A DNA stretch of 64,000 nucleotides from a virus: the IMG/VR virus record IMGVR_UViG_3300028025_000093, positions 24,650 to 88,649 of that record; one strand, given 5' to 3'. Shown one piece after another: positions 1,754-60,555 of the stretch. Under the pieces are notes generated by a model. It did no database searches, had not been told where the DNA came from, and worked only from the letters and a program-made list of their open reading frames with translations. Position 1 is the first letter of the stretch, and every line of letters starts with the position of its first letter. A program made the position numbers and the translations under genes.

Positions 1754-2497
1754 ATGGAAGCACAATTTAAGTACGAGATTCACGATGGTGTCATTGAAAA
1801 ATCCCATCAAGAAGAAGTTTGGAAATATATCCGTGGACTTGAACATTATGCCATGATGAAAGATGCCAACTATCCAAAAGTTGGCACTGTTGTAACTTAT
1901 TTCCCAGAAGAAAACAAAAAAGAATACTACAACAAAGAGTTAGGTTCTTGGAATAGCCAGTTTATGCATAGAGTTGCATTTGGCAATTCTGAGAATGAAT
2001 TGGAATTTAGACACAGACCAATTGCTAAACTTTGGAAAGAAATTAATAAGCATCTTGGTAACAGATTTACCATTGATGGTGATAAAGAAGGATGTTGGTC
2101 TAAAAGTAATCCAAACTTTTTACAACGTGTTTATGTCAACGTTCAAGGTAATGAAGAGATAAAAAGATCGCATGGTGTTCATCGTGACACTATCGATATG
2201 AACGAAACTAAAAACTACACATTGCTCTATATTGCAAATCCAGTTTGGCACCCAACTTGGTTTGGTGAAAATATATTCTACAGCAATGAAGATCCTACTG
2301 GCGATCACCAGCAATTCCAAAAAGGATGGGGACAATCTCGTGGATTCTCAGTTGGTTATCCATACGCAACAATCCCAACAGTTCCAGGTCGCATCATTCT
2401 ATATGATGGTAGAACACTACACACCACCAGACCAGTGGCTGAGTGGGCAGAAGTTTTTAGATACTCCTTAGCGTTTAGGGTTAGACTAAAGGATTAA
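1754..2497 (+). CDS. 2OG-Fe(II) oxygenase family protein
   Basis: A 247-residue protein of the 2-oxoglutarate/Fe(II) dioxygenase superfamily. The iron triad is visible: H143-x-D145 in GVHRDTID and H223 in DGRTLHTTRPV. R236 in FRYSLAFRV is the likely 2-oxoglutarate ligand. Such enzymes hydroxylate proteins, nucleotides or small molecules; the substrate here is unknown. GTGAGGA precedes the ATG. It opens a run of four oxygenase-like proteins, a PP-loop enzyme and a methyltransferase with very short or overlapping junctions. Confidence 0.8.
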   Translation: MEAQFKYEIHDGVIEKSHQEEVWKYIRGLEHYAMMKDANYPKVGTVVTYFPEENKKEYYNKELGSWNSQFMHRVAFGNSENELEFRHRPIAKLWKEINKHLGNRFTIDGDKEGCWSKSNPNFLQRVYVNVQGNEEIKRSHGVHRDTIDMNETKNYTLLYIANPVWHPTWFGENIFYSNEDPTGDHQQFQKGWGQSRGFSVGYPYATIPTVPGRIILYDGRTLHTTRPVAEWAEVFRYSLAFRVRLKD

Positions 2498-2498
2498 T

Positions 2499-3113
2499 AT
2501 GTTTACTCTTGTAGAAGATTGCAGTCCATATTATATAAAGTTTACTTATCCAGGTTCGGAAAAGGTAATTGATTTATGCAACAAATTACTGGAAACTTAT
2601 AAATTTGATCATGACAGATTTTTAACATTTGATGAAGAAACTGGTAAAAAAGTATTAGAAGAAACTAAGTTACTTCCATACTTTGATTTAATGTCGCATC
2701 GTGTTTCGATATTTTATACTGATAGACCATATAAATCTCCTGTGCATAAAGATGGAACAGATCATAGAATTAGTATTAACTTTGCAGTTAAAGTTCTTGA
2801 TAATAAATGCACAACAACTTGGTATCCAGATAGTATCGCTGAAGGGTACTCACCAGACTTAGCAGAAAAATATGCAAAAGCCAAACATAAATATCTAGGC
2901 ATCAATTCTAGAGAGTTTGATGATTTTGATGAAGATAAACACAAACCAATTGCAAGTATGGTTGCTAAGCAAGGTGAGGTTATATTATTCAATACTGATA
3001 TTTACCATCGCTGGGCGAATTTGTCACCCAATCATCGTGCCATGCTAACATTAAGAGTTAAGAATCCTGGCGATTTTTATTTTGAAGATGCCAAGAAAGT
3101 ATTATTTGGATAA
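2499..3113 (+). CDS. 2OG-Fe(II) oxygenase-like protein
   Basis: A 204-residue protein starting one base after the preceding stop. H83-x-D85 (PVHKDGTDHRISINFAV), H170 (FNTDIYHRWANL) and R180 (NHRAMLTLRV) fit the double-stranded beta-helix iron and 2-oxoglutarate ligands. Between them is an insert ending in an acidic stretch (REFDDFDEDKHK). The protein is only distantly similar to the preceding one. Substrate unknown; it probably acts together with its neighbours. Confidence 0.72.
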   Translation: MFTLVEDCSPYYIKFTYPGSEKVIDLCNKLLETYKFDHDRFLTFDEETGKKVLEETKLLPYFDLMSHRVSIFYTDRPYKSPVHKDGTDHRISINFAVKVLDNKCTTTWYPDSIAEGYSPDLAEKYAKAKHKYLGINSREFDDFDEDKHKPIASMVAKQGEVILFNTDIYHRWANLSPNHRAMLTLRVKNPGDFYFEDAKKVLFG

Positions 3114-3117
3114 CAAT

Positions 3118-4017
3118 ATGAATTTTTGTTATGGTAGTGATGGTTGGATACATTATGATTATAGCATAGTCAATCAACGTGCAACATTCTCAGTTGCACT
3201 AAAACCCACATCAACAGCCAAAGACGATATAAGTTTTGCTCAATCAGCAGATGATGTTGCAAAAGAATTGCATCAAACATACGGCAAAATATTCGTAGCA
3301 ATGAGCGGAGGAATAGACTCTGAGTATGTTGCAAATACATTCCTACGAAACAACATCCCAATCCAACCAATCATATTCAAAGCAGAAGATCTAAATGAGT
3401 TAGATGTTTGGTGGGCGATTGAGTGGTGTAAAACAAATAAAATAGAGCCAGTAATAATTAAACAAACAATCAAACAGTTCTGTGATGGATTGATTAAACA
3501 GTCACACAAATTTGGAGTCAGATGGTTTCCAGGTGTATATGGCATAAATCAGTGTGCCGAGCACGCAAAGAAAAATGGTGGTGTATTGATCACAGGCTCA
3601 GGTAATTATACTCATTACCCAGATCTCGTTTTATCGCAGATGAAGAAAACCAGTGAAGATGTTTATAAGTATGATGACTACCGAATTGTTGAAGACGGAT
3701 ACTATTTTCACTTACCGTTTTTAGTTAGCAATCAACTTAACCCAGAGATGCCATTTAGTTTTTATGATTGGAATCCACAGATAGTTTATAGTTATATAAA
3801 AGAATACGATTTAAATTTTAATAGTGCTGAGAACAAAGCCAGAATAATGGGTTGCGATAGAAGACCAAAGAACGTAGGATACCCAGAATACTTTTGGAGA
3901 ACTGAGCCACTACTTCAAGAAGAAAATCGCAAGAGAAGATTTATTTCCAAACCACAAACTGAAGTTGATTATCTTGGAACTAGAGAACACCTAATGAATT
4001 TACTTAGAGGAATATGA
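3118..4017 (+). CDS. PP-loop ATP pyrophosphatase-like protein
   Basis: A 299-residue protein with the PP-loop signature SGGIDS at residues 63-68 (IFVAMSGGIDSEYVANTF), typical of enzymes that adenylate a carboxyl, carbonyl or sulfate group (asparagine synthetase, QueC, GMP synthetase, PAPS reductase). After the loop come DVWWAIEWCKTNKIEP and a TGSGNYTHYPDL motif. I take the start at 3118, just after the previous stop; the frame is open upstream. The neighbouring oxygenases and methyltransferase suggest a shared modification pathway, which is inference. The class of substrate is not clear. Confidence 0.75.
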   Translation: MNFCYGSDGWIHYDYSIVNQRATFSVALKPTSTAKDDISFAQSADDVAKELHQTYGKIFVAMSGGIDSEYVANTFLRNNIPIQPIIFKAEDLNELDVWWAIEWCKTNKIEPVIIKQTIKQFCDGLIKQSHKFGVRWFPGVYGINQCAEHAKKNGGVLITGSGNYTHYPDLVLSQMKKTSEDVYKYDDYRIVEDGYYFHLPFLVSNQLNPEMPFSFYDWNPQIVYSYIKEYDLNFNSAENKARIMGCDRRPKNVGYPEYFWRTEPLLQEENRKRRFISKPQTEVDYLGTREHLMNLLRGI

Positions 4018-4709
4018 TGGAATCGATGGAACAAAAACCAATTACCTATGTAAAGCACAATGATGAGGTTGTTGACGAGGTTCATAATCTCTGGCAAACT
4101 CCAGTAATTACTGCCAGACCATTCACTGAAGACTTTATCTGTCAACTTGAAAAAGATGTAAAGTATTTGTTAAAACCTGGAGCACCTGCTACACTTAACA
4201 AAACTAATATCTGGGAATTGCCAGACCTACCTGATAGTTTTAGAGAAGTAGAGAAAAAGTTTATTGAGCTAACTGACAAGTACTATCGCCCACTAACAGA
4301 AATGCCTTTGCCACCATTGTACTGTTCAAAGGGTTATTTCCGTGACATTAAACAAAACAGTGTTTATCGTATTTCACCACACAAGCATGCCCAGACATTG
4401 GGTGTTGGTATAATCTATCTTACTGTACCAAAACGTAACGCTGGTAATCTAGTCTTATTGGACCCACGTGGTGGTGTTATGTGGCACAATCAGTTTACGC
4501 CATTTAAACGTATTGCTGTTGAACGTGGTTTGATGGTTATTCATCCTGGATACTTAGTGCATTTCGTTGAGCCAACTGACTATGATAATGCTAGATATGA
4601 TTACAGAAATGCGTTAGTTTCTAACATTCACTGGAAACACGCTGACTTTATCAAAGAACTTGAGAAGAATGAAGAATCCGTATTCAAAATGGGGAGCATA
4701 GAGGTATGA
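4014..4709 (+). CDS. 2OG-Fe(II) oxygenase-like protein (PF13759-like)
   Basis: A 231-residue protein overlapping the previous gene by 4 bases. The layout resembles the putative 2OG-Fe(II) oxygenase family that includes T4-group phage members: a PHKHAQTLGVGIIYL stretch (H123/H125), NLVLLDPRGG, then HPGYLVHFVEP (H183) and R198 in DYRNALVSNIHW. The usual HxD pair is not obvious at the first position, so catalytic competence is uncertain. It belongs to the oxygenase/methyltransferase operon. Confidence 0.68.
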   Translation: MMESMEQKPITYVKHNDEVVDEVHNLWQTPVITARPFTEDFICQLEKDVKYLLKPGAPATLNKTNIWELPDLPDSFREVEKKFIELTDKYYRPLTEMPLPPLYCSKGYFRDIKQNSVYRISPHKHAQTLGVGIIYLTVPKRNAGNLVLLDPRGGVMWHNQFTPFKRIAVERGLMVIHPGYLVHFVEPTDYDNARYDYRNALVSNIHWKHADFIKELEKNEESVFKMGSIEV

Positions 4710-6130
4710 TGTTTTTTGAAAAATATAATGATTTTATGGATGTTGATCCAAGAAAAGACAGAGCATTGACACAAGTTAATGCAGAGTCTATGACCAAGAG
4801 GTGTGAAGTTACTATACCAAAATGGTTAGTAGAAGGTAAAACTATTTTAGATTTAGGATGTTGTTATGGTGCTTACGGACAGTGGGCACTTATGCATGGA
4901 GCAAAACATTATACAGGCGTAGAACTACAAAAGAAGTTTGTTAATCCTGGAAGAGATTTGTTAAATAAGTATCACGACGAATCTAAATTCTCAATGATTG
5001 AACAAGATGCAGCAGAATTCCTTGAACAAAATAATCAGAAGTATGACATAATTATTGCAGCTGGAGTTATCCATGGATATACTGATGTAATACATTTCTT
5101 AAAACTTATTTCCGAACATGCCAATGAGTATGTTCTTATAGAATCAATTGAGTTGCCTGAGCCACACTATCCAAGAATTGAATTTAAACCATATAGAATG
5201 GTAATCCCTAAAATTAATGATAGTGGTCTGTATAGATATTCTGAAGGTATGACTCCTATTGCTGGGTTTAAAGCAGTAACACTAATTCTAAATGAATATG
5301 GTTTTGAAAACGATGGTGGTAGAATTAAACCAGAAAAGATAAACACGTGTCAAGACATATACAATAGTGCTATTGATGACGCAAAAACAAATTCAGATCC
5401 AACTAGAATTACAGCAAATAGATTTATATCTAGATATGTAAAATCTTCTGAAACTAAAAAGGTTTCGTTACAACACAAGACAGAAAAGAATAATGGAAAC
5501 TTCTTACCGAAGCCTTGGAAGTTTGATGATGATGTAGCTAAAAGATTCCAGCGAGAAGCAAGAACTAATATACCAGATTACGATAGAGTTATTGGTATGT
5601 GTTTAGCATTAGCAAACAAAAAATTTGATAAAACCTGTTCAGTAATTGATGTTGGTTCTGCTCTTGGATATACAATTGATGTTTTCACTAAAGACGGATT
5701 TAAAACTGTATCTGGAGTAGATAACTCTAAAGAGATGATTAACCACTGTCCTTACAAAAATTTTATTACATTATCAGATAAGTTACCAAAAGGTAACTAT
5801 GATTTAGTATTGGCTAATTGGACATTGCACTTTGTCAATGAACGTAAGCAATATATCCAAGATGTTTACGATTCTCTATCTGCCAATGGCACGTTTATCC
5901 TGTCAGAAAAAACCACACAGAGCGATGATGTTAAAGAACTGTATTATGACTTCAAACGCAACAATGGTATTACTGATGAATACATATATGAAAAGGAAGA
6001 GAAGCTAAAGGGATATATGAATCTAATGCCTGTTGAATGGTATTTACAAACCCTTGGTGATATTGGTTTCAAGTCAATACAAATTATTAATAGTAGACTT
6101 GGGTTTGTTACGTTTTATTGTAATAAATAA
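4706..6130 (+). CDS. tandem class I SAM methyltransferase (two domains)
   Basis: A 474-residue protein with two Rossmann methyltransferase domains. The first has motif I ILDLGCCYGAYG at 47-58 and the acidic GVELQ strand; the second has VIDVGSALGYT at about 313-323 and GVDNSKEM. A linker near 215-290 is rich in polar residues. The two halves are not close copies, which suggests fusion rather than recent duplication. It overlaps the preceding gene by 4 bases and the next by one. The substrate may be a nucleotide, protein or glycan; nothing in the sequence decides. Confidence 0.78.
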   Translation: MMFFEKYNDFMDVDPRKDRALTQVNAESMTKRCEVTIPKWLVEGKTILDLGCCYGAYGQWALMHGAKHYTGVELQKKFVNPGRDLLNKYHDESKFSMIEQDAAEFLEQNNQKYDIIIAAGVIHGYTDVIHFLKLISEHANEYVLIESIELPEPHYPRIEFKPYRMVIPKINDSGLYRYSEGMTPIAGFKAVTLILNEYGFENDGGRIKPEKINTCQDIYNSAIDDAKTNSDPTRITANRFISRYVKSSETKKVSLQHKTEKNNGNFLPKPWKFDDDVAKRFQREARTNIPDYDRVIGMCLALANKKFDKTCSVIDVGSALGYTIDVFTKDGFKTVSGVDNSKEMINHCPYKNFITLSDKLPKGNYDLVLANWTLHFVNERKQYIQDVYDSLSANGTFILSEKTTQSDDVKELYYDFKRNNGITDEYIYEKEEKLKGYMNLMPVEWYLQTLGDIGFKSIQIINSRLGFVTFYCNK

Positions 6131-6639
6131 TGCAAGATCTTTTTCACTGTTTTGAAAACTATCCCAGCTTGAGTTCATCAATTATTCAAGAAGGTAGTAC
6201 TTCTACATTCAGTGAACATTATTATCCACACGTATATAAAGCTGACTGCTCATTTGGTAGTTGTAATTTTGTAAATTTACTAAAACAAAACTTAGGTGAC
6301 GTAACTGCTCTATGGATACAAAACCCACCAAATACATTATACGATTGGCATATTGATAGGGAAATTCGTCAGTGTTCTATTAACTTTGAGATTAAAGAAA
6401 ACCACAATGCCATGGCACTATTTCGTGAACCAATAGGTAAGGGTAAAGACATAATCTATTACAATATACATAAGGTTAAATACGCAATTGGTAAACCAAC
6501 AGTATTGAATGTCAAAAGCCCACACTGCGTAATAAACCACTCCAACGAATCCAGAGTTATATTAAGTTTGTGTGTTCACAAATCGTCATATAAAGAAACT
6601 GTGGATTATATGAAAACCTTAAACATAAGTGAATACTAA
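6130..6639 (+). CDS. 2OG-Fe(II) oxygenase-like protein
   Basis: A 169-residue protein with H74-x-D76 (YDWHIDREIRQCSINF), H132 (SPHCVINHSNES) and R142 (RVILSLCV), which fits the metal and cosubstrate ligands of a compact dioxygenase. It is the fourth oxygenase-like gene in this operon. Its start ATG overlaps the preceding TAA. No substrate can be assigned. Confidence 0.68.
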   Translation: MQDLFHCFENYPSLSSSIIQEGSTSTFSEHYYPHVYKADCSFGSCNFVNLLKQNLGDVTALWIQNPPNTLYDWHIDREIRQCSINFEIKENHNAMALFREPIGKGKDIIYYNIHKVKYAIGKPTVLNVKSPHCVINHSNESRVILSLCVHKSSYKETVDYMKTLNISEY

Positions 6640-7604: not shown

Positions 7605-7799
7605 ATGACAGAACCACTATCGTTTAAAGAACAATGGGAAGCAAAAAAGCTACTCAAGAAGTCAAAGAAGAAAGCACGCAATAATGCCATGAAGGAACAC
7701 GGCATGACTAAAAGCGAAGCTACCTCGGCAGTTAAAAAAGCTGTAGGTCGCATTGCTTCAAATAAACCAACAACTCGTTCAGCTGGTCGAGGAAGATAA
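7605..7799 (+). CDS. small Lys-rich protein
   Basis: A 64-residue basic protein (MTEPLSFKEQWEAKKLLKKS) with a helical N-terminal half and an Arg/Gly C-terminus (TTRSAGRGR). The frame is open upstream, but GAGGAGAA immediately before 7601-7605 fixes the start at 7605. The charge pattern suggests DNA or RNA binding. The stop overlaps the next start (TAATG). Confidence 0.68.
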   Translation: MTEPLSFKEQWEAKKLLKKSKKKARNNAMKEHGMTKSEATSAVKKAVGRIASNKPTTRSAGRGR

Positions 7800-8680
7800 T
7801 GCGTTTATTTGTTATGATGGCATCACTGATGCTAAGTACGGTAGTTGCAGCCCAAGAAACTGTGCGTATCTATAGTCCATACTCGGCAACGCATTCTGGT
7901 ACGCCAGCAATGTATCGCATCTTGGAAACTGCCAACAAATCTCAAAACATCTATAACTTTATACTTGAGTTCAAACCAGGTGGTAATCAGATAATTGCGT
8001 TAAAAGCAATGGATGAAAACTCTCTGGCCATTATTGCACCAGCATTCGTTGAGAACGTTGCTGCAGGTAAAGTTATTGAGTCAGATTACATTCCAATCCA
8101 TACTATCGGTGATGCTTGCTGGACTGTAATTACCAATGGACCAATCAATGCCAACAAAGAACTAACAGTTGGTGGTGTAGGTTTTGGTAATGCAGCACAT
8201 CTAACAGCCCTAGCACTTGGAGAGAAATACAAGTTCTCAGTTCGTTACATTGTGTTTAAGTCCAACAACGACGCACTTGTAAATATGGCTGGTAATAATG
8301 GAATCTTTATGGTGATTGATCGTTACGAAGCGTATGAGTCAATGAAAACCAAGAATCCAAATCTACAAGCATTCGCTGCATCTTGTCCAGTTAGACTACC
8401 AATGGCACCAAAGGTCAAGACGCTAAAGGAAATTGGTATTGATGCGCCATACGTATTTAATATTACAGTTGCTCACAAGTCAATGAATTCAACAAAGCGT
8501 AAAGCCATTGGCATCATTCTAAACGATGCTCAAGAAAAGGTTGGAGCAGATGAAATCTTCAAGATCTCAGGTATGAAGATACCGCAGGAAAGTGCTCAGG
8601 AATTCTATACTAAGTCTATTACAAAGGTGCAAACTTTGCAAGCCAAGTATCGTAAAGAAATAGAACAAGCCAGCAAATGA
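7799..8680 (+). CDS. Bug/TctC-type periplasmic binding protein
   Basis: A 293-residue protein with a signal peptide (MRLFVMMASLMLSTVVAAQ, cleavage near residue 19), followed by a two-lobed binding-protein fold. FKPGGNQIIALKAM, the GxGN stretch VGGVGFGNAAHLTA and PKVKTLKEIGIDAPY match the tripartite tricarboxylate transporter receptor (Bug/TctC) family, which is especially abundant in betaproteobacteria. The usual role is capture of small carboxylates in the periplasm for a TctAB transporter; no transporter is encoded here. It may be a host-derived gene that helps the infected cell take up nutrients, or it may work on another ligand. Confidence 0.75.
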   Translation: MRLFVMMASLMLSTVVAAQETVRIYSPYSATHSGTPAMYRILETANKSQNIYNFILEFKPGGNQIIALKAMDENSLAIIAPAFVENVAAGKVIESDYIPIHTIGDACWTVITNGPINANKELTVGGVGFGNAAHLTALALGEKYKFSVRYIVFKSNNDALVNMAGNNGIFMVIDRYEAYESMKTKNPNLQAFAASCPVRLPMAPKVKTLKEIGIDAPYVFNITVAHKSMNSTKRKAIGIILNDAQEKVGADEIFKISGMKIPQESAQEFYTKSITKVQTLQAKYRKEIEQASK

Positions 8681-53952: not shown

Positions 53953-55131
53953 ATGGCGACATTAGTCTTAAGAACTACCAAAGGTTCTCCCCTTACTAAC
54001 GTAGAAGTAGATGCTAACTTTACGAACTTAAATGACGAGTTAGCAACTAAACTAAATTCAGCGAGTTACAATGCTGCGGATATCTTAACAAAGATAAAAA
54101 CTGTTGATGGAACAGGATCTGGTTTAGATGCAGACTTTCTTGATGGATTATCTGCGTTAGCTACACTACCTGTACCAACAGATAAAAGTTCTATCGTTGC
54201 ACGTGATGCCACTGGTAATGTCGGCTTAAATGCACTTACTTTGGCTGGAGCACTATTAGGTACTTCTGCCACACTAACAGGTAATTTGTCTGTTGGTAGT
54301 ATTACTATCTCTGGTGGATCTATTCCTGTTACTGTTGGTGGTACTGGTGCCACTAACGCTACTAACGCTAGATTAAATCTAGGTCTGGAAATTGGTGTAA
54401 ATGTCCAAGCATACGACGTTGAACTGGCTGCCATTGCAGAATTAACTTCTGCAGCAGATACTACTCCATATTACACAGGTTCTGGAACTGCTGCCTTAGC
54501 ACCTTATACTGCATTTGCAAGATCATTTGATGCTGCAGCCAATGCTACTGCTGCTCGTTCTGTACTTGGTCTTGTTTTGGGTACAGACGTTCAACCTTAC
54601 GATGCGGACTTAGTAGCACTATCTGGTATCGCTACTAACGGTATTTACGTTAGAACTGGTAACGGAACTTCTGTAACACGTGGCATTACTGGCACTACTG
54701 GTCGCATCGTTGTTACTAATGGAGATGGTATTGACGGTAATCCTACACTGAATACTGGTGAAGACGTACCTTCTCTAGCTGGAAATAATACTTTTGCAGG
54801 ATCGGAGAATACATTTAGTGGTACTGTTTTTGCAAGTTTATTCCAACAATCCTCAGATGCCAGATTGAAAGCAGATGTAAAAACGCTAAATAATGCTGTA
54901 GATGTTGTTAGTAACCTGCGTGGCGTTTCTTATCTAAAAGATGGTAAGAAAGAAATCGGTCTAATTGCCCAAGAAGTCGAAGAGTTTTTACCAGAAGTAG
55001 TTGGTGAAACTGCCGATGGATTTAAGACTGTTGCGTATGCAAACGTGGTAGGACTTTTAATCGAAGCGATTAAAGAACAACAAAACACTATTAAAGAATT
55101 AAATACTCGTTTAGAGAAACTGGAGAAATAA
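53953..55131 (+). CDS. tail fibre with S74 chaperone domain
   Basis: A 392-residue protein. The front LVLRTTKGSPLTNVEVDANFTNLNDELATKLNSA is a common fibre attachment motif. The C-terminal SDARLKADVKTLNNAVDVVSNLRGVSYLKDGKKEIGLIAQEVEEFLPEVV is a Peptidase_S74 intramolecular chaperone, which trimerises the fibre and cuts itself off at the conserved Ser of SDARLK. It ends with a coiled coil. Directly followed by the Cys-rich gene. Confidence 0.9.
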   Translation: MATLVLRTTKGSPLTNVEVDANFTNLNDELATKLNSASYNAADILTKIKTVDGTGSGLDADFLDGLSALATLPVPTDKSSIVARDATGNVGLNALTLAGALLGTSATLTGNLSVGSITISGGSIPVTVGGTGATNATNARLNLGLEIGVNVQAYDVELAAIAELTSAADTTPYYTGSGTAALAPYTAFARSFDAAANATAARSVLGLVLGTDVQPYDADLVALSGIATNGIYVRTGNGTSVTRGITGTTGRIVVTNGDGIDGNPTLNTGEDVPSLAGNNTFAGSENTFSGTVFASLFQQSSDARLKADVKTLNNAVDVVSNLRGVSYLKDGKKEIGLIAQEVEEFLPEVVGETADGFKTVAYANVVGLLIEAIKEQQNTIKELNTRLEKLEK

Positions 55132-55132
55132 T

Positions 55133-55501
55133 ATGCCTGTAGCTGCAACTGGATTTAGAATATCAAACGGCACAGACCTTAATGGTTTATTTTGGACATG
55201 GCAGGGAGACACTGGTAATCGTGGCGTAAACGATGCAAACGGTAACTGCGGATGGGCTTGCGCATGTAATGCGTGTAACTCTGCGTGTAACTGTAACTGC
55301 GGTAACTGCGATGCGGCAGACTTAGCGTTCAACGTACACGTTACTGACTGGCGTTTAAATGTATTCCGTAACACTACATACGCTGATGGTCTACGTCATG
55401 ACTCCCAAGAACAAAGTATGGGTCACTTTAAGTACTTGCGTGTAAACTGTAACTGTAACTGCGCATGTAACTGTAACTGTGCTTGTAACTGTAACTGCTA
55501 A
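55133..55501 (+). CDS. Cys-Asn repeat protein, candidate RiPP-like precursor
   Basis: A 122-residue protein with 17 cysteines. Residues 39-59 hold eight Cys in NC/AC spacing; residues 106-122 hold nine Cys, one at every second position (NCNCNCACNCNCACNCNC with the Asn 105), ending at the very C-terminus. Between them lies a normal-looking segment (VHVTDWRLNVFRNTTYADGL). Alternation puts all Cys on one face of a strand. The radical SAM/SPASM gene downstream makes thioether or other crosslinking of this protein plausible; a metal-binding or disulfide-rich virion protein is the alternative. GGAGAA precedes the ATG; the fibre gene ends one base earlier. Confidence 0.8.
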   Translation: MPVAATGFRISNGTDLNGLFWTWQGDTGNRGVNDANGNCGWACACNACNSACNCNCGNCDAADLAFNVHVTDWRLNVFRNTTYADGLRHDSQEQSMGHFKYLRVNCNCNCACNCNCACNCNC

Positions 55502-55514
55502 GGATTAGCCCAAA

Positions 55515-56633
55515 ATGTATAAAATTTTTAAAATCAATATTATCGGACTTGATACTTCAGACGACACTCTTGGCATTAATCCTACAGTAAGAGCAACTAT
55601 GGGATACAGTGAATCTACCAAACAGATCACTGTTTTAGTAGAAAAGATTATTTTCCCAGAAGTTCCAACAACTGAGTCTGTTGATCTAAGAGGTGAACAC
55701 ACAACAGTTACGTATGAAACTTTGTTAGAGAAAACATTCACTCCAGAAGACTTCCCAAAAACACGTGGATCTATTCGTTGGGTAGTTGACTATGATGTTG
55801 CCAATAATAAGATTGTTGGTCCATTTGATGCTCTAGAGTATACAAAAACTAGAGCAACAAGTACCACATCACATCGTTTAATTCCTAGAATCGTTAAAGA
55901 ACGCTACACTACAGATCTAATTCCATTATTCACTATTGATAATTTTTATAAAGCTGCTGCAGATTTCGACGCATCTATAATGACTGTATATCTTGATAAT
56001 CAAGGTATAGAATTTAACGATACAGTTTTAACAGGTGACTTAACTACAGCTGAAGAAGTAATTCAAGCTGGTGCAACAACTTGGCAATATAAAAACTTGC
56101 ATACTAATGTGCATTATGAAATTCTAGATAATGATGGAAAGATTATGTCAACTATTCTTCCATATACAAAGGATAGTGCTAAAGCAGCAATTACATATCC
56201 AATGATAGTTCCAGCAGAATTGATACAATCTGCAGAAGAAAACCCTCATACATCACCAATCGGTGGCAATCGATTTAAAGTTCAATTACCAGCAGCTGAA
56301 TATTATAACGTAAGAGCTTCTTTTGATACTCATTACCCAAATAAAACAATACCTGTTGAATTTGGTGTAACTTGTGTTAATGGCGTACCAAACAAAACCA
56401 GATTAGTAGCTGGTGGTTACGATAAAGATCGCTTTGCTGCAGGTGACGAAACTAATCAGAATATTATTAACTACAGAAATCAGCACGATCAAACTGGATC
56501 GAATCGTACCTTGAATGGTGTGGATTCATTACGAATTAGCACCAATGGTTTGGTTGCTGGTGATTTTATTAAATTAAAGTTAAATATTGGTGAATTCTAT
56601 TCTTATTCTGAACTTTGGATCGAAATAGTATAA
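55515..56633 (+). CDS. protein of unknown function in the radical SAM cassette
   Basis: A 372-residue protein (MYKIFKINIIGLDTSDDTLG). Mostly beta with a predicted globular fold; GVTCVNGVPNKTRLVAGGYDKDRF and NRTLNGVDSLRISTNGLVAGDFIKLKLNIGEF lie near the end. No family is recognised. It lies between the Cys-rich gene and the radical SAM gene, so it may be a partner, a carrier or a virion protein that holds the modified product. AAGGA precedes the ATG. Confidence 0.68.
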   Translation: MYKIFKINIIGLDTSDDTLGINPTVRATMGYSESTKQITVLVEKIIFPEVPTTESVDLRGEHTTVTYETLLEKTFTPEDFPKTRGSIRWVVDYDVANNKIVGPFDALEYTKTRATSTTSHRLIPRIVKERYTTDLIPLFTIDNFYKAAADFDASIMTVYLDNQGIEFNDTVLTGDLTTAEEVIQAGATTWQYKNLHTNVHYEILDNDGKIMSTILPYTKDSAKAAITYPMIVPAELIQSAEENPHTSPIGGNRFKVQLPAAEYYNVRASFDTHYPNKTIPVEFGVTCVNGVPNKTRLVAGGYDKDRFAAGDETNQNIINYRNQHDQTGSNRTLNGVDSLRISTNGLVAGDFIKLKLNIGEFYSYSELWIEIV

Positions 56634-56671: not shown

Positions 56672-58144
56672 ATGAGTTTGTATAAAATGGTTCTTACTGG
56701 AGCCAATGATGTGGAACAGTATTTAATTTATGATCCAATGACTTCTGAGATCTACTGGGAAGAAACTGGTGAGCAGCCTACTCTGGAATACATTTCAAAG
56801 GGGTTGACTTACCAGATTGACTCCAAAGTGTGGACTCCAGCTAAAGTTACAAATCCCCACAATCCTGAACTTCACGGTAAGAAATCACGCAAGCCAACTA
56901 CACTTAAAATCACAATGGGTCTTAAGTGTAATTATGCGTGTTCTTACTGCAATCAAGCCCATCAGCCACATGACCCAGTAGGTGGTCCAGAAGATGCTGA
57001 AGAGTTGGTTGAAAAGATGAAAAAGAGTTTTGACTTCAACACTTATGATAAGTTTCGTTTAGAATTCTGGGGCGGTGAGCCTATGGTTTATTGGAAGACA
57101 CTAAAACCACTTGCAGAAAAACTTAAAAAAGTTTATCCGAATGCTCAATTTATGATGGTTACCAATGGTTCTTTACTAACTAGAGAAAAGATAGATTGGT
57201 TTAATCGCATGGGATTCGCTATTGGTATGTCTCACGATGGTCCACTGCATGCGCAGAATCGTGGTCCAGATCCACTAGATGAACCAAAAGCTAAAGATGC
57301 TGTAGTTTATGCGTTAAAAACTATGGGTCAAGGTAGATTTACATTCAACTGCGTATTGACACGTGAGAATGTTTCAATACCAGCTGTTCGAGATTTTATT
57401 TGCGATAAGTTGAATCGCAAAGATTTTGGTTATGATGATGTGAAAGTTGATCAAATGGAACTTCAGGTAACTACTGAAGAATTGATGTTGCCTTATGATG
57501 ATGGTGGAATGGCACATTCTTTGCAAACTCCAGATGAAAAGAAAGAAATATTACATGCACTTTTCTGGGAAACTATCCAAGGAAATAATCAGTTTAGTTG
57601 GACAGTAAACTCAAAAATTACTGGGTTCTTTGAATCTTTAGTTTATAAGAGACCTGCAGAAGTAGTTGGTCAAAAGTGTGGTATGGATAAAGAAGATAAC
57701 ATTGCTATCGATATGAAGGGTAATGTTACTACTTGCCAGAACACTTCTTCATTAACCAAACACAATTTAGGTAATATTGAAGACTTAGATAATGTTAGAT
57801 TGACTAACTCATATCACTGGTCTACACGAGCCGAATGCCCTTCTTGTCCTGTAGTTCAGTTGTGTCAAGGAGCTTGTTTGTTCCTAGAAGATAAACACTG
57901 GTCTCAAGCATGTGAGAACTTATTCTATTACAATCTTGCAATTTTAGCAGGATCTCTGTTCATAATGACTGACGGATTAATTTTGACTAGAATAGAAGGC
58001 GAGAAGATTAGGTTTGATGATGTCAAAGCACTTGATATTATTGACATCAATTTTGTTAAATCTGGTGGAACTAAAAAATCTTGGAAGGTTCGTAAGCCAA
58101 TTAACATTCCAGTAGTTTCTATTCCAGAGATGCCAGTAGTATAA
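56672..58144 (+). CDS. radical SAM/SPASM enzyme
   Basis: A 490-residue enzyme. The radical SAM cluster is C86-x3-C90-x2-C93 (CNYACSYC), with GGEP at 134-137 for SAM binding. The SPASM domain follows the consensus closely: C336, C355, then C389-x2-C392-x5-C398-x3-C402 and C414. SPASM enzymes modify peptides or proteins (sactipeptide and ranthipeptide maturases, anSME). The first 75 residues could recognise the substrate. The Cys-rich protein two genes upstream is the obvious candidate substrate. AAGGATT before the ATG. Confidence 0.92.
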   Translation: MSLYKMVLTGANDVEQYLIYDPMTSEIYWEETGEQPTLEYISKGLTYQIDSKVWTPAKVTNPHNPELHGKKSRKPTTLKITMGLKCNYACSYCNQAHQPHDPVGGPEDAEELVEKMKKSFDFNTYDKFRLEFWGGEPMVYWKTLKPLAEKLKKVYPNAQFMMVTNGSLLTREKIDWFNRMGFAIGMSHDGPLHAQNRGPDPLDEPKAKDAVVYALKTMGQGRFTFNCVLTRENVSIPAVRDFICDKLNRKDFGYDDVKVDQMELQVTTEELMLPYDDGGMAHSLQTPDEKKEILHALFWETIQGNNQFSWTVNSKITGFFESLVYKRPAEVVGQKCGMDKEDNIAIDMKGNVTTCQNTSSLTKHNLGNIEDLDNVRLTNSYHWSTRAECPSCPVVQLCQGACLFLEDKHWSQACENLFYYNLAILAGSLFIMTDGLILTRIEGEKIRFDDVKALDIIDINFVKSGGTKKSWKVRKPINIPVVSIPEMPVV

Positions 58145-58458
58145 TGGCTTTTTTGGACTGTATGATATGGGAATTGAATAAGTTCCCGAGATATGGTAGA
58201 TACCGAAACATTTATACCATATCTAATGTTTTCCATTATTGTTCTAGTACACAAGAGTATCAGAACAATAATGTTGCTATTCAGATTCCAGAATTTGAAC
58301 TTATTGCATCAAAAGCTGATCTAGAGTTTTTTTATGAATATAAGAAGCAAATTATTGAAAAAGGCATTCCTGCAATAATAAATTTAATAAATAATGATGT
58401 AGAGACATGGTCTTTAGACCTTTCAAAAGCAAAATTTTTACAACACCTTAAACGGTAG
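58144..58458 (+). CDS. small protein after radical SAM gene
   Basis: A 104-residue protein (MAFLDCMIWELNKFPRYGRY) overlapping the radical SAM gene by one base. Helical second half (ADLEFFYEYKKQIIEKGIPAII). It could be a recognition or accessory protein for the enzyme. No family recognised. Confidence 0.62.
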   Translation: MAFLDCMIWELNKFPRYGRYRNIYTISNVFHYCSSTQEYQNNNVAIQIPEFELIASKADLEFFYEYKKQIIEKGIPAIINLINNDVETWSLDLSKAKFLQHLKR

Positions 58459-58467
58459 GAGAAACAA

Positions 58468-59415
58468 ATGAGTAAAAAGCACGTAAAATGGGTTATCGCC
58501 CACGAGCCAATCGGGTTATTTCTTAAAGTAGCTGAGTCTTTCGCTAAAGAAGTAAACGAAAAAACAAATGGTCAATTTGATATTGAAGTTCTTTCTCTTT
58601 CTGCATACGCTGAGAAATACAACGCAGGTAAGAAAGTTACTAAGAACGATCTAATGCAATTGATCAATGATGGCACTATTGAAATGAGCCACATTTATAC
58701 TACATGGTTGGCAGACTACAACAAAGATTTAAACGCATTAGATTTACCTTTCCTATTCCAAGATCACGCCCACGCTGATCGTGTTTTAGAAGGCGAAATT
58801 GGTACTCAATTGTTAGCTGACGTAAGCAAGAATTCTAACATTCACGCTATGTCTTTCACTTACTCTGGTGGCTATCGTGTAGTTCCAGCAAACTTTAAAG
58901 CTGACACTGTAGACGCATGGAAATTTAAGAAAGTTCGTACTAGCCGTTCACCAGTTGCTATCGATACATTCAAGTTACTAGGTGCTAACACTTATCCAGG
59001 AATTGATCTTGAAGAAATGAACACAGCTGCACAAGCTGGCGTTATCAATGCTGGTGAGTCTACTTATGTACGTATTTTCCCACTACAGCAAAATGAAGCA
59101 TTCAAGTATGTTAATGACACTGCTCATAGCTTGTTCTTAACTTCAATCATCGTCAACAAAGACTGGATGGCTCAGTTTGACGAACAAACTCGTGAAGTTA
59201 TGGCAACTGCTGCATTTAATGCTGCACGTAAAGAGCGTCGTGAGTCTGTTGCTGATATTCCAAACATCCTTGCAGAGTGCGAAGCAAAAGGTGTTAAAGT
59301 TATCAAGATGTCTGAAAAAGAAGAACAGAAGATGAAAGATGTTACTTCTAAAGTGTACGAAATGTACGCAGACTACTTTACTCCAGGTTTAGTTGCTAAA
59401 ATTAAGCTACAGTAA
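58468..59415 (+). CDS. TRAP/DctP-like binding protein without signal peptide
   Basis: A 315-residue protein with the DctP fold: VAESFAKEVNEKTNGQFDIEVL, LPFLFQDHAHADRVLEGEIGTQLL, FKKVRTSRSPVAIDTFKLLGAN with the conserved Arg that binds a carboxylate, and ESTYVRIFPLQQNEAFKYVNDTAH. DctP proteins are periplasmic receptors of TRAP transporters, but this one starts MSKKHVKWVIAHEP without signal peptide, so it stays in the cytoplasm or becomes part of the virion. Strong site AGGAGAAA. It may bind a small carboxylate in the modification cassette. Confidence 0.82.
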   Translation: MSKKHVKWVIAHEPIGLFLKVAESFAKEVNEKTNGQFDIEVLSLSAYAEKYNAGKKVTKNDLMQLINDGTIEMSHIYTTWLADYNKDLNALDLPFLFQDHAHADRVLEGEIGTQLLADVSKNSNIHAMSFTYSGGYRVVPANFKADTVDAWKFKKVRTSRSPVAIDTFKLLGANTYPGIDLEEMNTAAQAGVINAGESTYVRIFPLQQNEAFKYVNDTAHSLFLTSIIVNKDWMAQFDEQTREVMATAAFNAARKERRESVADIPNILAECEAKGVKVIKMSEKEEQKMKDVTSKVYEMYADYFTPGLVAKIKLQ

Positions 59416-59437: not shown

Positions 59438-59464
59438 AGGGGATGTTTAGGCATCCCCTTTTTT
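59438..59464 (+). terminator. rho-independent terminator
   Basis: GGGGATG (59439-59445) and CATCCCC (59452-59458), loop TTTAGG, then six T. It should end transcripts of the DctP-like gene. Confidence 0.85.
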
Positions 59465-59475
59465 ATTGGGGATAT

Positions 59476-60555
59476 ATGAATCAAATTTTATTTTATAACA
59501 CTGGATTTGTTAGGCAAGTTATAGAACAGCAGCCTAATATTTTAGATGGATACTTGTTAGATAAAGATCTATTTCATTTTTATGATAAACATAAAATGAA
59601 CTTAAATGTAGCTTATGATAGAACAGGTAATGTCCCGCACTATTTGAATATTAAGTCTGGATTACTTCAGATACCTAAAGTTGATTCAGCTTTTAATAAA
59701 TCATTCGCTGAGTGCGTTGAGGATAGGTGTAAAGAACTATTATCTCTTGGTAAGCGAATAAATGTAGTGTGGAGTGGCGGAATAGACAGCACATTAGTTT
59801 TGTGTGCTTTGTTACACTACGCAAATGATCCCAGTCAAATAGTTGTATACGGAACGTACACATCCGTTTTAGAATCAGGTGATTTCTTAGAGAAACGAAT
59901 TATCCCCAGAGGTGTTGAGGTAAAACTTAAAGTATCTTCTCGTAGAGATTTTGATGATTGTTCATCAGATGAGATTTTTGTTACTGGGTTTTTTGGCAAC
60001 CAGCTATTTGGACCAACGGATAACTTTTCAGTAAACTCAACTGTAAAAACTGACATATCATTCTTTCATCATCAGTTCAATGGTGATCCTCTAGAGGATT
60101 ATACAAAGTATGTTGACCCAGAACTTCACGAGTTTTTGTTGCCGTGCATTAAAGCTAGCCCCAAGAAAATAGAAACGCTAAGAGATTTACGCTGGTGGCT
60201 TATATTTAATTTTGATTGGTATACTGCAGAATTTGCAACTAGAGTAAATACTAATCAGCAGAATAATCAATATCACTTTTTTAATACTGATGATTTTCAG
60301 CGTTATGTTCTAACTACAAAAGAACCATTTACTAAAGAAGTTGGTAATCCGCTTACACATCGTTGGGTAATGCGACAGTTAATTGAAGAGATGACTGGAG
60401 ACAGCAATTATGCTTGGACAAAACCAAAAGGGGTTTCCAATTTAGGAAACCCCGATCCAACATGGTTGCTTTTACTAGAAGATTATAGTGTGTTTAAATT
60501 ACCAACTACATCTTTTATAAATCAAAGCAGGATTACTGCCCAAAACCGACCTTGA
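59476..60555 (+). CDS. asparagine-synthase-like PP-loop protein
   Basis: A 359-residue protein with SGGIDS at 100-105 (INVVWSGGIDSTLVLCALL) and FFGNQLFGPTDNF, which resembles the G-G-D-E-L-F motif of asparagine synthetase B. The glutaminase domain is replaced by an unrelated N-terminal part. Related PP-loop enzymes form amide bonds or macrolactams in natural-product pathways (lasso cyclase McjC), which would suit a RiPP-type cassette; this is inference. GGGGA lies before ATG 59476; its 3' end overlaps the opposing gene by 23 bases. Confidence 0.75.
   Translation: MNQILFYNTGFVRQVIEQQPNILDGYLLDKDLFHFYDKHKMNLNVAYDRTGNVPHYLNIKSGLLQIPKVDSAFNKSFAECVEDRCKELLSLGKRINVVWSGGIDSTLVLCALLHYANDPSQIVVYGTYTSVLESGDFLEKRIIPRGVEVKLKVSSRRDFDDCSSDEIFVTGFFGNQLFGPTDNFSVNSTVKTDISFFHHQFNGDPLEDYTKYVDPELHEFLLPCIKASPKKIETLRDLRWWLIFNFDWYTAEFATRVNTNQQNNQYHFFNTDDFQRYVLTTKEPFTKEVGNPLTHRWVMRQLIEEMTGDSNYAWTKPKGVSNLGNPDPTWLLLLEDYSVFKLPTTSFINQSRITAQNRP
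60430..60453 (+). repeat. perfect inverted repeat inside a coding region
   Basis: GGGGTTTCC (60430-60438) and GGAAACCCC (60445-60453) with a 6-base spacer, inside the PP-loop gene. It could be a strong hairpin in the mRNA, or a processing or attenuation site. Confidence 0.6.

Follow-up and report, generated by a model that had tools for sequence, protein, structure and literature searches.

Why should a small phage protein end in an unbroken alternation of cysteine with asparagine or alanine, and what would act on such an end? These questions are raised by an open reading frame (ORF) in a 64,000-nt stretch (here, the window) of the IMG/VR record IMGVR_UViG_3300028025_000093, which is 161,882 bp in length. 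The ORF (55133 to 55501, plus strand) encodes a 122-aa protein, and its last 18 residues (105 to 122; 55445 to 55498) read NCNCNCACNCNCACNCNC, that is, nine consecutive (N/A)C units. The reading that we favor, with a probability of about one in two, is that phages carry a cassette that modifies tail-fibre tips, most likely through thioether cross-links between Cys and Asn, Ala, or Asp. We found no published account of this pairing of tract and radical SAM enzyme in phages in the open-access literature.

The tract gene lies at the end of a tail module

The baseplate wedge gene of the window has its nearest isolated relatives in Pelagibacter phage Mosig and Methylophilales phage Melnitz (~40% identity). 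Therefore, we take the window phage to be a T4-like myovirus. The tail module extends as far as a tail fibre gene (53953 to 55131, plus strand) that matches PF13884 and PHROG tail fibre families and encodes a C-terminal Peptidase_S74 chaperone domain. The tract ORF, which encodes the likely substrate, is directly 3' of this gene. We found no match for the 122-aa protein in Pfam, NCBIfam, or PHROG and none by tblastn against isolated phages. It matches no tail family, and its assignment to the tail fibre is by gene position only. The AlphaFold model of the protein has a pLDDT of 41, and we set its fold aside as evidence.

Downstream on the plus strand are p55515 (55515 to 56633) and a 490-aa radical SAM/SPASM enzyme (56672 to 58144; phrog_1802), two genes 3' of the tract ORF, which we propose as the tract maturase. 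The 104-aa protein that follows (58144 to 58458, plus strand) neighbors the enzyme only within the clade of the window.

The tract is under selection at the protein level

The initial annotation of this DNA had pointed out that Cys occupies each even position from 106 to 122, and a reading of the protein agrees. It had also suggested that an inner block (residues 39 to 59; 55247 to 55309, plus strand) repeats the style. This block, CGWACACNACNSACNCNCGNC, is indeed Cys rich, but its alternation is only partial, and a 4-residue indel is tolerated there among relatives. Cys makes up 0.53% of the residues encoded by nine virion genes of the window; thus, nine fixed alternate Cys would arise with a probability of ~3e-21 by composition.

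The annotation had further argued from varied codons that the tract is not a slippage product. In the window this holds for Cys, where both TGT and TGC are used, but every tract Asn is AAC. Because the Asn codons are all alike and Cys has only these two codons, the tract DNA of the window is somewhat repetitive. The comparison with homologues was clearer. We found 25 viral loci encoding relatives of the 122-aa protein, and two more were found later. Strict alternation is kept in all of the relatives, and the residues that separate the Cys are limited to N, A, D, T, and Q. When 20 homologous tracts were aligned, both TGT and TGC were present in all of Cys columns 1 to 9, and all changes in the Cys columns are synonymous, with no Cys replaced. 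The spacers in the same sequences use both AAC and AAT for Asn and three codons for Ala. Since the Cys columns vary between TGT and TGC without replacement, we conclude that the tract is kept by selection on the protein, as had been proposed.

The annotation had proposed to test whether repeat number varies while the alternation is preserved. We observed 9 to 11 Cys in close relatives and 4 to 11 across all tract proteins, with the alternation retained. Unconserved Cys positions, which the annotation had named as counterevidence, were found in no homologue; the tract Cys are invariant in all of them. The spacers show a strong preference for N, A, and D: in 106 distinct tracts, the first three are N in 94, 94, and 85% of cases, respectively, and overall the spacers are 64% N, 21% A, and 10% D.

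As a separate observation on codon use, AAC encodes 117 of the 141 tract Asn in the window and its homologues, the opposite of the nine window genes (140 AAC, 297 AAT). This excess of AAC may be a trace of hexamer duplication.

A radical SAM/SPASM enzyme accompanies the tract

The enzyme scores above the cut-offs of PF04055 and TIGR04085 and is a radical SAM/SPASM protein by definition, with three radical SAM and seven SPASM Cys. In an alignment of 40 diverse sequences, C86, C90, and C93 of the radical SAM motif CX3CX2C are invariant. So are the residues of the SPASM motifs CX9-15GX4C (C336-X13-G350-X4-C355) and CX2CX5CX3C - C (C389-X2-C392-X5-C398-X3-C402 and C414). The AlphaFold model has a pLDDT of 92, and its nearest fold match is CteB, a thioether-forming peptide maturase, followed by anSME, TigE, ChlB, and SuiB. 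In a scan of the window proteins against curated NCBIfam maturase families (PapB, SCIFF, DynA, QhpD, and anSME), the enzyme scored no more than 68.5 bits, where the cut-off is 340; the best-scoring families, all below cut-off, were the PapB, DynA, and geopeptide maturases. In the secondary structure of the model, only strands precede residue 94, and an RRE-like fold is not evident there. No leader peptide was seen.

The enzyme gene is present in every relative of the 122-aa protein for which the contig is sufficient. Its identity is mostly 70 to 88%, and this level is kept even where the intervening gene drops to ~25%. At one locus (L015) the enzyme is ~5 kb downstream of the tract gene. At some loci, the gene for the main enzyme is immediately preceded by another radical SAM gene (L104, L072, L158, L220, L221, L243, L247-L249, L252, L256, L276, and L299).

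Tract and enzyme are found together

We searched viral contigs for DNA in which seven Cys codons alternate with other codons, a scan in which the enzyme was not used. Most matches were simple repeats. Those at a C terminus with mixed or Asn spacers, varied codons, and 1.5 kb or more of DNA 3' of them were accompanied by the same enzyme family. N-rich matches that lacked the enzyme were either simple tandem repeats or on contigs that ended within 1.3 kb. The raw table gives a Fisher p of 9e-11, which we use as a guide only, because the loci are partly related.

The converse scan, with an enzyme alignment as the query, yielded 80 bacterial and 80 viral loci, 160 in total. The seeds of this alignment are tract loci, and the set is defined by likeness to them, a limit from which the blind scan is free. 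Among the 94 close loci with at least 5.4 kb of upstream DNA, 90 have a tract, defined by at least three Cys in alternation and four Cys within the local sequence, upstream of the enzyme on the same strand, and 87 have one under a stricter four-Cys rule. The control regions of these loci gave 4 tracts on the opposite strand and 0 downstream. The tract is nearly always near the C terminus of its protein and is otherwise before a Hint domain. After clustering of the enzyme loci at 70% identity, a tract was found in 34 of 36 clusters; the more distant enzymes have one less often than the close ones (11 of 23). The four close loci without a tract are L166, L179, L198, and L277. Thus, the two scans agree on the same pairing. 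Many phages and prophages have a tail protein with such an end, and since the enzyme gene is beside nearly all of these tracts, the tail tip of the virus is probably chemically modified. The initial annotation had thought of periodic cross-linking, and the invariant tract Cys together with the constant enzyme neighbor support such a role. It had not remarked on the neighboring enzyme, on the link to tail fibres, or on how widely the pairing occurs among phages.

The enzyme family is uncommon yet wide in distribution. At an E value of 1e-100, 6 of 300 genomes from the order to which the Limnohabitans locus belongs encode it, as do 4 of 296 from that of the Thalassobacter locus; both counts include the centre genome. 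One genome has three copies at 1e-100 and four matches at 1e-30. Among viral contigs, at least 574 stretches have a gene for a relative of the enzyme, and loci with both tract and enzyme are also present in several cultured bacteria. With two further enzyme queries against isolated phages, only Achromobacter phages JWF and 2-1 were recovered; the radical SAM genes of Campylobacter and Erwinia phages gave weak partial matches only.

Two loci have an unrelated-looking protein ending in CCECECTCTCTC...CCSECDCGD near a different radical SAM gene (L046, ~5542 to 6123 with 4254 to 5645, both on the minus strand; and L113). That radical SAM gene scores only 35 to 41 bits with the present enzyme model, and this is possibly a convergent pairing. 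At another locus (L194:9777-9962), a 62-aa ORF ending in AGACACACGGPCY lies close to the gene for a distant enzyme-family member and resembles a classical small precursor peptide.

Unrelated proteins carry the tract

The proteins that bear the tract fall into at least four groups without homology detectable by BLAST, and the tract is the only part that they have in common. Tail-fibre family matches were obtained for L153, L159, L163, L182, and gp028 of Achromobacter phage JWF, and one body of the tail-fibre type has collagen repeats. The JWF fibre reads ...NCNCDCNCNCSCFPAGT..., with the tract leading into a Hint domain, and a similar arrangement is present at L164, L165, L170, L174, L185, L255, L257, and L274. 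If the Hint domain cleaves at its first residue, the tract would become the C terminus. As part of the reading that we put at even odds, the tract would be portable between unrelated proteins, and Hint would be a cleavable follower in some phages.

In clustered neighborhoods, the usual gene order is the tract protein, a beta-rich protein that we call c3, zero to three genes for 2OG-Fe(II) oxygenase-like proteins, in some cases the second radical SAM gene, and the enzyme. The oxygenase assignments are based on PF13640 matches and on mostly subthreshold PF13759 matches. The product of p55515, with a beta-rich C-terminal domain, is a divergent c3 (profile-profile E, 1.2e-11, with a probability of 97.4; HMM E, 8.4e-42). 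We found c3 in 91 of the 121 loci with full upstream DNA. It is missing from JWF and from several Hint-type loci that retain tract and enzyme; thus, tract and enzyme form the core.

How the tract may be modified

Comparison of the loci establishes, at the level of sequence, that the enzyme is encoded 3' of a protein, often a tail fibre, with a strict C-terminal (N/A/D)C alternation that usually starts with NCNCNC. The same comparison establishes the constant linkage, the intact catalytic motifs, and the protein-level selection on a tract common to unrelated proteins. From these data, the enzyme very probably acts on the tract, and the tract is probably located at the fibre tip. The nature of the modification is less certain, with the balance tilting slightly toward a covalent thioether.

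Asn and Ala are thioether acceptors in ruminococcin C1 (RumC1) (PMC8172795), and NxxcA has a Cys-Asn beta-thioether with N-x-x-C spacing (PMC8326336). The C-x-C donors of the former and the spacing of the latter resemble the tract. Unlike the tract proteins, sactipeptides and NxxcA are secreted small peptides without a link to the virion, and here the chemistry is predicted. All offsets between Cys and spacer within the tract are odd, and in (NC)n every Asn other than the final one is followed by a Cys at position +3; thus, an N-x-x-C bridge could recur along the tract. The C-x3-D geometry of PapB requires an even offset between Cys and acceptor and cannot occur in strict alternation. Therefore, we rejected it as a general rule.

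We propose that a dedicated radical SAM cassette, with or without 2OG oxygenases, acts on the C-terminal (N/A/D)C ladder of tail fibres and makes of it a rigid tip held by covalent bridges, at the even odds given above. The enzyme would abstract hydrogens from the Asn, Ala, or Asp of the tract by S-adenosylmethionine radical chemistry, and neighboring Cys thiols would then attach to those carbons to give a ladder of thioether bridges. The product would be a covalently locked tail-fibre tip; in the window, the locked tip would be that of a small tip protein whose gene follows the fibre gene. At Hint-type loci, self-cleavage would expose the tract as the C terminus. The c3 protein may present or stabilize the tip, and the 2OG oxygenases of many loci may add hydroxyl groups. 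As for benefit, our guess would be a rigid, protease-resistant tip touching the host.

The ranthipeptide maturase PapB gave the best curated-family score, and CteB gave the best fold match. CteB/SCIFF and PapB (TIGR03974, NF047865) share with the present system radical SAM and SPASM domains and a Cys-rich substrate with repeated motifs. However, the window enzyme scores far below the curated cut-offs, and their substrates are short leader-core peptides, whereas here the tract is at the C terminus of phage structural proteins that reach ~700 aa. Because a short leader-core precursor is lacking, assignment to the ranthipeptide/sactipeptide class is weaker, and the claim that the enzyme works like a thioether maturase stands firmer than the claim that this is such a system. 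QhpD (the quinohemoprotein amine dehydrogenase maturase, TIGR03906) and anSME, which are among the better profile or fold matches, also modify whole proteins. Their substrates, however, are cellular enzymes without an alternating tract, and the acceptors of QhpD are Asp/Glu.

Several alternatives were weighed against the thioether ladder. The one that survives best, though we consider it unlikely, follows the annotation's thought of metal or cluster binding: a metal or Fe-S needle in which the CxC of three fibre chains meet on the axis while the enzyme modifies something else or assists. Cys is a good ligand for soft metals, and potential ligands at every second residue of a fibre end recall the HxH iron sites of T4 gp37 (PMC11705849). 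A small protein encoded after the fibre is also a trait of gp38-type tip adhesins. However, gp37 has His instead of Cys, neither T4 protein has a dedicated enzyme or a sequence match, and we found no repeated HxH; the tract consists of Cys with N/A/D, with one His among the spacers counted. A needle would also leave unexplained both the constant presence of a peptide-modifying SPASM enzyme beside the tract and the strong preference for N, A, or D as spacers.

Improbable to a greater degree is epimerization of every second residue (Asn, Ala, or Asp) to give a D,L beta-helix at the C terminus, with the Cys free or in disulfides. PoyD of the polytheonamide pathway does work in a strict 1,3 pattern (PMC8326336), often on Asn, and the tract is alternating and Asn rich. 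However, proteusin epimerases have a radical SAM cluster and a C-terminal RRE only (PMC8326336), whereas the present enzyme has a full seven-Cys SPASM domain, and epimerization does not require Cys at alternate positions.

Slightly less probable again is the idea that the true substrate is c3 or some other product of the operon and that the Cys tract is a co-travelling disulfide or thiol adhesive. The frequency of c3 fits this idea, but tract and enzyme persist at the loci that lack it, and the c3 consensus has no tract-like conserved motif. We infer that the tract, and not c3, would be the substrate, although gene linkage alone is no proof. Lastly, a functionless slippage repeat would fit the partly hexamer-repetitive tract of the window (AAC TGT) and the many simple repeats among pattern matches elsewhere, but we rejected it as highly improbable on the synonymous variation without Cys replacement, the retention of frame and C-terminal position across unrelated proteins, and the linkage to the enzyme.

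If the thioether ladder is correct, viral structural proteins would join small peptides and a few enzymes as substrates of radical SAM/SPASM chemistry, here as enzymatic radical cross-linking of a virion protein. We found no earlier description of a tail-tip modification of this kind in the open-access literature. The phage radical SAM genes of the PHROG family phrog_1802 would gain a function, and some phage 2OG-Fe(II) oxygenases would gain candidate targets. The portable tract and its enzyme could become a tool to lock protein ends. The reading is directly testable, since both tract and enzyme are present in an isolate, Achromobacter phage JWF.

Other genes in the window

Beyond the 104-aa protein, the tail-region operon encodes a DctP-family TRAP substrate-binding protein (58468 to 59415) whose start has no evident signal peptide. 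Its identity among relatives is 74 to 92%, compared with 25% for the neighboring p55515. A PP-loop protein, asparagine-synthase or QueC-like, is also near the enzyme (59443 to 60555), and the PP-loop/QueC-like cluster recurs at two loci beyond the clade of the window (L180:9284-10378 and L223). Elsewhere in the window, a 2OG-oxygenase-like gene away from the cassette (4014 to 4709) matches PF13759. By eye, the run of genes at 1754 to 6639 includes some for 2OG-oxygenase-like proteins, a PP-loop-like ATPase, and methyltransferases, and 7799 to 8680 encodes another solute-binding-like protein, which seems to have a signal peptide.
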